DNA from: an uncultured bacterium
GTDB taxonomy: Bacteria; Patescibacteriota; Minisyncoccia; CAIUEV01
Assembly: GCA_903898335.1 (NCBI GenBank)
Contig: CAIUEV010000015.1
Location: 1-11,252, forward strand
Direction: 5' to 3'
DNA length: 11,252 nucleotides
This document shows, in pieces, positions 6,679 to 11,252 of this stretch. A program made the translations under genes and the position numbers. Numbering within the stretch: position 1 is the stretch's first letter; each line of letters opens with the position of its first letter. The notes beneath the pieces are model-generated. The model made no database searches. It worked only from the letters and a program-made list of their open reading frames with translations, and was not told where the DNA came from.

Positions 6679-8874
6679 CTATTTAGATTTAGTAGGCTTG
6701 TTTTGATTTATTTGCTTCAGAACGTCTCCCTTGGCAATATATTTGCATTTTGGATACTGATTGCAAGCATAGAAAGGTCCGCGACGACCATTCTTCTGAA
6801 CCAACTCACCTTCGCCACATTCGGGACACTTAACGCCCGTCTTGTTTTCGAATTTTTTGATAAACTTACAAGTCGGGTAGTTGGCACAACCCAAGAATTT
6901 CCCCCACTTACTCCGCTTCAGTTTCAGATCTGATCCGCATTCCGGGCATTTTTCTCCCGTAATCGACTCTTCCAATTTTTTATCCTCCTCCGAAGCTTCC
7001 GTATGTTTACAGTCCGGAAAGCCGGAACAAGCATAAAATTTACCGAAGCGACCGAATTTTTCCATCATCGGCTTTCCACATTCTGGACAAACTTTATCTG
7101 TCTGTTTCTCGAATTTCTTCACTTCTTTTTCTTTGGATTTGAGGTTTTTTTCAAAAGGAAGGTAGAAGTTTTTCACCATCGGTGTCCACTGCGTTTTTCC
7201 TTTGGCAATCTCGTCCAGCTCCTCCTCCACTTTGGCCGTAAATTTTATTTCCACAATTTCCGGGAAGTGCTTGACCAAAATGTCATTCACGATGCAACCG
7301 ATTTCTTCCGGAAAAAGATACTTTTTCTCGTCTCTGGCAATATAGCCACGCAATTGAATAGTGCTTAGAGTTGGAGCGTAAGTCGAGGGTCTCCCCACTC
7401 CGTTTTCTTCCAAGGCCTTGATTAGTGTTGCTTCAGTGTAACGAGCGGGCGGTTCCGTAAAGTTCTGTTCTCCCGAAATTAATTTTCTGGTTACCGTTTC
7501 GCCCTCTTTGACTTCCGGCAAAGTTCCCTCTCGTAGCATTCCTTTCCCCAGTACTTTGAAAAAACCGTCAAAAATAATTTGTATACCCTCTGAGACTAGC
7601 TCGTTTGGACCGGCGGAAAAATTAATTTTAGAAATCTTGACTTTTGCCTGAGCCATCTGACAAGCAACAGCGCGATTCCAAATTAATTGGTAAAGTCTAA
7701 ATTGATCCCTCGACAAAGTTGATTCAAGCTCTCGAGGAGTCCTTTCCGGAAAGGTCGGACGAATGGCCTCATGCGCCTCCTGCGCTCCTTTGATTTTTTG
7801 TTTATAGAATCTCGGCGTCGCCAAAGCATATTCTTTGCCGAACTCTTTTTCTATTACTTCTTTGATTACCGGCAGAGCTTTATTGGAAATGAAAATAGAG
7901 TCAGTTCTCATATAAGTAATCAAACCGACCTGCTTGCGATCGATTTTAATTCCTTCGTAAAGTTGTTGAGCGATCATCATTGTCTTCTTGGCAGAAAACC
8001 CCAGTTTGCGACCGGCTTCCTGCTGTAGAGTACTCGTTCGAAAGGGAGGCGGTGGGGTTCGCAAAGATTCTTTACTCTGAATTCCACTGACTTTCATTGC
8101 ATTTTTCGCTATCTCTTCGACGATTTCTTCAACTTCTTTTTGAGTTTTCAATTGCATCCGCGCAACACTTTTACCCCTAACTTTTGTTAGTAAGGCAGCT
8201 AAGTCGGAATTTTTCTGCTCTTTATTTTTTTCTTTAACGGTCACAATTTCAATTTTAGGTTTCTTGGAATCCCCACCTTGATCCCAGAAAACTTTCACTC
8301 GCCAAAATTCTTCCGCTTTGAAATTTTCTCGTTCTCTTTCGCGCTCTACTATCAAACGAACGGCCACCGACTGAACTCGACCGGCCGAAAGACCTTTGCG
8401 TACTTTTTTCCACAAGAAGGGCGAAAGCTTGTAACCAACCAAACGGTCCAACACTCGACGCGCCTGCTGAGCATCGTAAAGCGCCTCATCAATTTCTCGC
8501 GGATTTTCCAAAGCCTCTTCAATAGCCGAAGGAGTAATTTCGTGAAAAGTAATGCGCTCAAAGGGAACTTTTTTGTTTTTAGCACTTAAAATTTCCTTTA
8601 AATGAAAAGCAATCGCTTCTCCTTCACGGTCTTCGTCAGTCGCCAGAATTATTTTCTTCGCTTTCACCGAAGCTTTTTTCAAAACTTCAACATTTTTTTT
8701 CGCTTTCTGAGGAATAATATATTGGGGTTCAAAATCTTTTTCCACTTCCACCCCCAGTTTTCCCTTCGGCAAATCTCGAATATGTCCATAGGAGGACAGA
8801 ACTGTATACTCTTTTTTCAAAAAACGGCTGATAGTTTTAGCTTTGGTCGGCGACTCGACGATTACCAATTTCAT
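6679..8874 (-). CDS. topA: DNA topoisomerase I (type IA)
   Basis: Relaxes negative supercoils by cutting and passing one DNA strand. The Toprim domain starts at residue 1 with Glu7 (VIVESPTKAK) and the acidic triad D80-x-D82-x-E84 (DEDREGEA). SAGRVQS (163-169) and the catalytic Tyr321 with Arg323 (LITYMRTDS) mark the core, which reaches about residue 585. Three C-terminal C4 zinc ribbons follow: Cys596/599/616/622, 643/646/663/669 and 683/686/704/710, all with their four Cys. The tail is Lys-rich. At 731 residues it is shorter than the E. coli enzyme but normal for many bacteria. It lies 18 nt after dnaJ and 8 nt before the glycosyltransferase, and has no evident SD. All residues needed for activity are present. 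Confidence 0.98.
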   Translation of the reverse strand: MKLVIVESPTKAKTISRFLKKEYTVLSSYGHIRDLPKGKLGVEVEKDFEPQYIIPQKAKKNVEVLKKASVKAKKIILATDEDREGEAIAFHLKEILSAKNKKVPFERITFHEITPSAIEEALENPREIDEALYDAQQARRVLDRLVGYKLSPFLWKKVRKGLSAGRVQSVAVRLIVERERERENFKAEEFWRVKVFWDQGGDSKKPKIEIVTVKEKNKEQKNSDLAALLTKVRGKSVARMQLKTQKEVEEIVEEIAKNAMKVSGIQSKESLRTPPPPFRTSTLQQEAGRKLGFSAKKTMMIAQQLYEGIKIDRKQVGLITYMRTDSIFISNKALPVIKEVIEKEFGKEYALATPRFYKQKIKGAQEAHEAIRPTFPERTPRELESTLSRDQFRLYQLIWNRAVACQMAQAKVKISKINFSAGPNELVSEGIQIIFDGFFKVLGKGMLREGTLPEVKEGETVTRKLISGEQNFTEPPARYTEATLIKALEENGVGRPSTYAPTLSTIQLRGYIARDEKKYLFPEEIGCIVNDILVKHFPEIVEIKFTAKVEEELDEIAKGKTQWTPMVKNFYLPFEKNLKSKEKEVKKFEKQTDKVCPECGKPMMEKFGRFGKFYACSGFPDCKHTEASEEDKKLEESITGEKCPECGSDLKLKRSKWGKFLGCANYPTCKFIKKFENKTGVKCPECGEGELVQKNGRRGPFYACNQYPKCKYIAKGDVLKQINQNKPTKSK

Positions 8875-9990: not shown

Positions 9991-10710
9991 TTACGCGATT
10001 CCGTTTATTTCAACTTTTTTAACGAATTTTTTTAGTTGATCTTTCATTTTTTCCAGATCTTCCTGCGTGTAAGGTAATGCCTCTTGATACTTTTTGTCAA
10101 ATGTTTTAATGGGACGGAACTGTTGAAGCACAATTTTTTCCGCTCCCTCAATCGCCTCACCCATCATTTTTATATCCTCTTCACTAACCAACCCCGGAAC
10201 GACTGTCGTTCTAAATTCATACTCCACCCCACTCTTCATCAAAAGCTCGATGCTGCGCTTTATATTTTCCAGTGGTGGATCTTGAATACCGGTAGCCCGA
10301 GCATAGCTCTCAAAACTGCTCTTAATATCCATCTGCACTCGGTCCAACAATTTTTCTTCCAGCAACTGCGCCAGCATTTCCGGGTTGCTTCCGTTCGTTT
10401 CCAATGCTGTTGAGAAACCTTTTTCTCTGATTAAACGAAAAAAATCGGGTAGTTTTTCGTGCAAAGTCGGTTCGCCCCCTGTAACGATAATCGCATCCAG
10501 CCAACCCTTCTTTTTTTCCAAAAAAGCTTCCACTTCCGCCCAAGGAAATGGCGCTATTTTATTTTCTTTGGCCAATTTCAGGTCAATCAGCTCGGGATTG
10601 TGACAAAAAGGACAGCGGAAATTACAGCCGCCCGTAAAGACAATACCGGAAATCTTACCCGGCCATTCCACCAGAGAGAATTTTTCTAAACCGTAAATTG
10701 GTATTTTCAT
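9991..10710 (-). CDS. nrdG: Radical SAM activating protein, anaerobic ribonucleotide reductase type (NrdG-like)
   Basis: Members of this family use a [4Fe-4S] cluster and S-adenosylmethionine to place a glycyl radical on the class III ribonucleotide reductase NrdD, permitting dNTP synthesis without oxygen. The cluster motif C29-x3-C33-x2-C36 (GGCNFRCPFCHNPEL) lies near the N-terminus, after the family's typical opening (YGLEKFSLVEWPGKISGIVF). GGEPTLH (78-84) is the SAM-binding GGE element. The 239-residue length and this opening fit the NrdG2 group (TIGR02495-like) better than the shorter E. coli NrdG. The partner nrdD is not in the window, so the substrate is inferred from the family; another glycyl-radical enzyme is possible. 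It starts nine bases after the stop of the AlbA_2 remnant and heads the intact part of the cluster. No SD is seen. Confidence 0.88.
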   Translation of the reverse strand: MKIPIYGLEKFSLVEWPGKISGIVFTGGCNFRCPFCHNPELIDLKLAKENKIAPFPWAEVEAFLEKKKGWLDAIIVTGGEPTLHEKLPDFFRLIREKGFSTALETNGSNPEMLAQLLEEKLLDRVQMDIKSSFESYARATGIQDPPLENIKRSIELLMKSGVEYEFRTTVVPGLVSEEDIKMMGEAIEGAEKIVLQQFRPIKTFDKKYQEALPYTQEDLEKMKDQLKKFVKKVEINGIA

Positions 10711-10974: not shown

Positions 10975-10991
10975 GTTTTTTTTGTTTTTCT

Positions 10992-11175
10992 CCGGACCGA
11001 TTCTTCGCGTTTTTTAGGCGTTACCAAAACGGTCCGGCAATGTCCATTGTTTTTTTCATCTTTATTAATCGGCAAGACGAAAAGGGCAAAACAAGCAAAG
11101 CAGTTTCTTGGGTGCGATCTATTTGTCCTTCTGACAGTGACAAATAAAATTCGACTCACTTTGTTAGAAACAAAG
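10992..11175 (-). ncRNA. Hairpin-rich non-coding stretch downstream of the DGR repeat
   Basis: Three inverted repeats follow the repeat on the minus strand: 11175-11169/11165-11159 (perfect 7 bp, 3-nt loop), 11146-11139/11127-11120 (perfect 8 bp, 11-nt loop) and 11037-11030/10999-10992 (perfect 8 bp CCGGACCG/CGGTCCGG, 30-nt loop). None has a T-run after it in either direction, so they do not look like terminators. In studied DGRs the RNA running on past the template repeat is structured and needed to prime cDNA synthesis, and a hairpin just after a variable repeat marks the target. Either role would fit; neither is shown. No convincing gene lies in 10914-11163. Confidence 0.4.
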
Positions 11176-11252
11176 ATAAAACTCCCGAAGAAAGGCACAG
11201 CGGAACCCAATGTTGTTGTTCGAGTTCCCCGGAACGTTGTTCAAATTGAGCG
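11164..11252 (-). repeat. 3' end of a diversity-generating retroelement repeat, probably the template repeat (partial)
   Basis: Read on the minus strand from 11250, the frame encodes LNLNNVPGNSNNNIGFRCAF and ends at a TAA (11166-11164). Asn-rich sequence ending in NIGFRCA is the hallmark of the C-type-lectin/formylglycine-enzyme-like fold diversified by DGRs, and the GC-richer end (GGGTTCCGCTGTGCC, 11208-11194) corresponds to the place where mutagenic homing starts. All seven Asn codons are intact AAC or AAT. A template repeat keeps such codons, while a variable repeat normally shows them altered by adenine mutagenesis, so a template repeat is favoured. The hairpin with the stop codon in its loop (11159-11175) would also suit a variable repeat at the end of a target gene. 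The element is cut by the window edge; no reverse transcriptase is visible. Confidence 0.7.

Follow-up and report, generated by a model that had tools for sequence, protein, structure and literature searches.

Description of a template repeat of a diversity-generating retroelement at a contig end in an uncultured member of Patescibacteriota, and its probable full form in a same-family relative

Description of the window

The last ~75 bases of the contig, read on the minus strand, are confirmed by sequence comparison as the 3' part of the template repeat (TR) of a diversity-generating retroelement (DGR). Very probably the contig end cuts through this TR, and the full element is built as in a same-family relative, G003. 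Here ~75 bases next to a contig break suffice to recognise a DGR fragment, which is resolved by way of a relative. DGRs are well-known bacterial elements by which a section of a surface protein is rewritten, and the general picture of their function is unchanged.

The window, the whole stretch of DNA analysed, is the complete contig C15 of genome G000, 11252 bases in length; nothing is therefore assembled to the right of position 11252. The genome comprises 961 kb in 148 contigs and is listed as 97% complete. The features of the right part of the window, all on the minus strand, are as follows.

11179..11252, minus strand: DGR TR, truncated by the contig end to its 3' part; recognised by DNA identity to the G003 TR and by the pattern of adenines.
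10992..11186, minus strand: putative spacer RNA of the DGR, a conserved stretch of ~195 nt on the 3' side of the TR; delimited by alignment with G003 (L030:6912-7133).
11082..11112, minus strand: most conserved core of the putative spacer (CCCAAGAAACTGCTTTGCTTGTTTTGCCCTT), near-identical in G003.
10992..11037, minus strand: predicted terminal hairpin of the spacer with an 8-bp stem; stem pairs kept in G000 and G003.
9991..10710, minus strand: NrdG2-type radical SAM gene (TIGR02495, 198 bits, cut-off 131); neighbour outside the element.

The end of the TR, ~11179, is defined by the point at which TR and VR of G003 cease to match, and the first bases of the putative spacer overlap it. The radical SAM gene starts at 10710 and is separated from the TR by ~450 nt. 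The sequence-only reading had described about 450 nt beside the repeat that hold no reverse transcriptase (RT), and none is seen left of the TR up to this gene. At the other end of the window an inverted repeat of 25 nt (282-306 / 362-386, 88% complementary, spacing 55 nt) lies upstream of an ORF (458-814) that has no Pfam match at E 0.01.

Description of the template repeat

The right end of the window begins on the minus strand with CGCTCAATTTGAACAACGTT. Positions 11250-11194 of this strand translate to LNLNNVPGNSNNNIGFRCA, with seven Asn per 19 residues, encoded by six AAC codons and one AAT codon. The earlier count of seven Asn codons in 19 is correct. The frame continues as FLREFYLCF and reaches a stop at 11166-11164. 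The TR peptide is the sole match to the pattern GFR[CLV][AV] in the six frames of the window.

The DNA of 11080-11252 matches the TR and flank of G003 with 72% identity over 173 nt (E 4.6e-22). Within the first 59 nt, none of the 15 window adenines differs from the G003 TR, against 9 of the 44 other bases; counted from the G003 TR, whose compared piece has 16 adenines, one of these corresponds to a G in the window. Since adenines are kept where other bases differ, and since the 3' flank is conserved, the piece is read as TR and not as VR. A DGR template repeat is what the sequence-only reading had proposed, and the G003 match, the kept adenines and an adenine-specific TR/VR pair in G003 bear this out.

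It is very improbable that the piece is a VR, the end of a target gene. Such an identity would suit the NIGFRCA ending, the open frame with a nearby stop and the one G003 TR adenine that is G in the window. It is opposed by the distribution of differences given above, by the match of the window 3' flank to the flank of the G003 TR, and by the lack of any match at E 1e-3 between the window and the VR-bearing contig of G003 (L084). Still less credible is the conserved C-terminus of an ordinary formylglycine-generating (FGE)-type protein, the outcome that the sequence-only reading had itself named as fatal to its proposal. The peptide does carry GGSW...GFRCA, which is presumably an FGE-like motif. 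No FGE-sulfatase match is observed in G000, by a search that is positive in four of the 14 control genomes. In G003 the corresponding frame has a length of 66 aa and a VR partner that differs from it adenine-specifically, which speaks against such a protein.

Among 188 related genomes, nine, the own genome included, have a DNA match at E <= 0.001, and G003 is the best by far. Shorter matches to the TR part of the window are found in G166, G073 and G006, where they lie inside DGR loci with RTs nearby. G057, G109, G137 and G182 have short matches only, all of which except that of G057 fall outside the TR part. Six phage records match weakly (E limit 1, best E 3e-5); they represent four phages, VHML and VP585 being present twice each, and in two of the six the match lies inside features annotated as reverse transcriptase. 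Exact copies of 17 bases of the TR, AACAACATTGGGTTCCG, occur in 18 stretches (L012-L029) from MAGs of other groups.

Description of the element in the same-family relative

The element of G003 is distributed over two contigs, C10 (L030) and C21 (L084). On C10 the TR occupies 7130-7255 of the minus strand, and its frame of only 66 aa has no enzyme body upstream. The RT is encoded on the plus strand at 7560-8795, ~300 nt from the TR. It matches RVT_1 with 78.9 bits (cut-off 29.6) and the PHROG reverse transcriptase with 419 bits, and contains IGNLTSQ and YVDD, which are taken here as signs of a DGR-type reverse transcriptase. In PADLOC it matches many generic RTs, defence RTs included, and the result is uninformative.

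On C21 the target ORF (1246 aa) matches FGE-sulfatase (35.5 bits, cut-off 23.3) and bears the VR close to its 3' end. This contig also carries a bAvd gene (PF22296, 48 bits, cut-off 40; also a PHROG Avd match) and, on the opposite strand, the 3'-terminal part of an RT gene with 91% DNA identity to the RT of C10 over 350 nt. The NCBIfam Avd model gives the Avd 59 bits, below its cut-off of 80, and the RT is likewise below the NCBIfam cut-offs. Avd and RT are convergent and overlap at their 3' ends, 104 nt being shared on C21; on C10 the end of the Avd match overlaps the RT. The layout is assembled from two contigs, and the 350-nt overlap at 91% could stem from two different strains or from two copies of the element.

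TR and VR of G003, which lie on separate contigs and are linked by their pairing, differ at 18 positions, of which 17 are among the 25 TR adenines and one is among the 101 other bases (Fisher p 4e-14). The VR (L084:4285-4412) has a 2-nt insertion relative to the TR, by which the target frame leaves the GFRCA ending for a longer tail; a retrohoming error, decay or an assembly error would each account for it. Between TR and RT (L030:7319-7482) lies a stretch of ~160 nt bounded by imperfect inverted repeats, GTGTCATTCCCG.../...CGGGAATGACAC, MITE- or REP-like in appearance and with no second copy among the loci compared. It may mark the rearrangement by which the RT was inverted.

In the full element, parts of which are seen in G003, the TR would give rise to a non-coding RNA whose 3' spacer is structured. 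A complex of RT and bAvd would bind the spacer and reverse-transcribe the TR, inserting random bases wherever the template has adenine. The resulting cDNA would then be exchanged for the VR, which sits at the 3' end of a large gene encoding an FGE/C-type-lectin-like domain. The element is presumably active in G000.

Search of the genome for the missing parts

The RT, the Avd protein and the second, near-identical repeat differing at adenines, which the sequence-only reading had suggested looking for, are all absent from the G000 assembly and all present in G003, on its two contigs. RVT_1 has no match in the whole of G000, the window included, by a search that is positive in three of the 14 control genomes. 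The G003 RT as a query finds nothing in G000, and matches 88 of 188 relatives; G001, of the same family, is likewise without a match. This frequency of RTs among relatives, like the small genome, would suit a CPR bacterium. A search for Avd finds none in G000 and gives matches, some of them weak, in all the others of the six genomes searched (5/6). No second repeat is found in G000 by DNA comparison, the other matches listed being short, with E >= 0.07.

Two further candidates in G000 were considered. The motif GGNTTYMGNTGYGCN has two matches in the genome, and that on C114 was rejected as it lies out of frame in an ORF of 577 aa, where the frame reads GIPVRG. The other candidate is a surface-protein-like ORF of 691 aa, incomplete at its contig end (G000:C111:7320-9392, L137), which resembles the G003 target in residues 90-208 (42% identity, E 6.6e-18) and, weakly, in residues 756-863. 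Its last ~30 residues are helix-turn-helix-like (PF01381, 16.6 bits, below the cut-off of 23), and this contig end is perhaps chimeric. By sequence similarity the ORF is a possible, weak candidate for a DGR target in G000.

Repeats of the TR/VR kind tend to break assemblies, and this is the likeliest reason for the missing RT, Avd and VR. It is unlikely that the TR is an orphan, left with its spacer after the rest of the DGR was lost or rearranged in G000. A loss of this kind would explain why an assembly listed as 97% complete holds no RT, Avd or VR, and G001 without an RT match would agree with it. The position of the contig end inside the repeat, just where assemblies tend to break, speaks against it, and the kept TR adenines and the compensatory changes in the flank fit recent function. 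The sequence-only reading had allowed that it would fail if the genome held neither an RT nor a second near-copy; neither is found in this draft assembly of 148 pieces, in which, however, the repeat itself is interrupted by the end of its contig.

With the TR taken as cut by the contig end, the missing parts would be situated beyond the right contig end in the layout of G003, the RT divergent from the TR and the Avd antisense over the RT 3' end. Given that layout, and given that no RT is present on the 3' side of the TR, the RT of G000 is expected on the 5' side and thus right of the contig. The sequence-only reading had proposed an RT to the right or else a rearranged element; by analogy with G003 the former is the best-supported guess.

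Description of the 3' flank

The flank is putatively a DGR spacer, conserved in two genomes of one family, and by analogy it may act like the spacer of Bordetella phage BPP-1. In that phage a folded spacer on the 3' side of the TR recruits bRT-Avd and serves to prime cDNA synthesis, with avd situated 5' and brt 3' of the TR (PMC12875486, in the portion available). BPP-1 and the window/G003 pair are alike in that a TR is followed by a structured 3' stretch, here a predicted one, and differ in that the brt of BPP-1 lies 3' of the TR, the RT of G003 5' of it and on the other strand. The short conserved flank of G000 and G003 is a candidate for RT-Avd binding.

RNAalifold predicts for the spacer, from two sequences only, a structure of -28.6 kcal/mol with 37 pairs, five of which are changed on both sides. 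Folded as a single sequence, window 10985-11193 has a z of -2.40 (3 of 200 shuffles equally good) and the G003 flank a z of -3.19 (2 of 200). The loop of the terminal hairpin has TTTTGGTAAC on its 5' side and GCGAAGAAT on its 3' side, identical in G000 and G003; all eight pairs of the stem are kept in both genomes, three of them changed on both sides. This hairpin is present in the minimum-energy fold of G003 and absent from the minimum-energy and centroid folds of the window. No T-run terminator is found after it.

The window, flank included, has no Rfam match at the gathering score. The hairpin pattern is found in 4 of 383 genomes; the stem is present in G000 and G003 only, the other two lacking the outer stem. 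In the viral scan, among the matches listed (at least 120 stretches), none outside G000 and G003 has more than five stem pairs; the stem check covers 131 matches in all, repeats of the G000 and G003 loci included. The 24-base pattern of the spacer core has no exact match in viral contigs. RNA model R1 matches 8 of the 383 genomes; two of these, G000 and G003, were used to build the model, and their scores follow by construction. The other six (22.8-30.3 bits, rough E 4e-6 to 8e-4) are taken as chance matches because their loci of ~3.1 kb contain no match to the G003 RT. In the available portions of four papers on DGRs (PMC6642488, PMC8144416, PMC12875486, PMC8867640), neither this hairpin nor the layout of the G000/G003 family is found described.

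Orientation of template and reverse transcriptase

Layout was tallied in 47 loci, of which 40 were taken in score order from the list of G003 RT matches and seven were others; several share a genome, and both G003 contigs (L030 and L084) are among them. Ten are without a TR/VR pair. In the remaining 37, TR and RT lie on the same strand in 36; the pair of the single opposite-strand exception, L126, is adenine-biased both ways, and the locus is ambiguous. The commonest order, VR+ TR+ Avd- RT+, occurs in exactly this form in 27 of the 47 loci. A TR/VR pair is present in 24 of 33 viral loci, in all 24 on the same strand as the RT. In most related loci (L086, L097-L136) avd is antisense between TR and RT, so that the 3' end of avd is close to the stretch 3' of the TR or lies antisense to it.

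G003 differs from this layout. L030 is outside the 37 because its VR is on the other contig; read by eye and by BLAST, TR and RT are on one contig, minus and plus respectively, and a same-strand arrangement is not observed. The window has no RT on the 3' side of its TR, and the common single-strand order TR-(Avd)-RT is absent. The DGRs of class-level relatives are like that of G003 in their adenine-specific TR/VR pairs, Avd-like protein and RT; they have TR and RT on one strand with Avd mostly antisense between them, whereas the RT of G003 lies on the strand opposite to the TR and is convergent with Avd. Their likely counterpart is Patescibacteria DGR clade 2 (Roux et al. 2021, PMC8144416, portion available).

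In the RT tree 40 related loci form one group without G003 (support 100/99). The group consists of L086 and L097-L136 without L128; a TR/VR pair, with Avd antisense between TR and RT, is recognised in 34 of its 40 loci, and in six no pair is recognised. The RT of G003 is placed near those of G166, G073 and G006, with poor support.

The divergent TR/RT layout of G003 is a cassette inversion of a type that is uncommon, though reported before. The available portion of Yan et al. 2019 (PMC6642488) places cassettes with inverted RT in group G5, over which the prototype is >20 times as frequent; the RT of G5 cassettes is inverted relative to the prototype, as in G003. The G000/G003 pair is an uncommon natural case in which a DGR template is seemingly uncoupled in orientation from its RT.

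Promoter-like sites number two in the TR-RT region of G003 (1.0 expected) and four in the window end (1.0 expected), none of the latter upstream of the TR, whose upstream side lies off the contig; no terminator-like site is found in the window end. These counts speak neither for nor against an independent template unit. It is tentatively proposed, at somewhat less than even chances, that the template RNA of the G000/G003 family forms a transcription unit of its own, divergent from the RT and ending in the lineage-specific TTTTGGTAAC/GCGAAGAAT hairpin. If so, template and enzyme would be expressed separately, unlike in the co-directional relatives scored.
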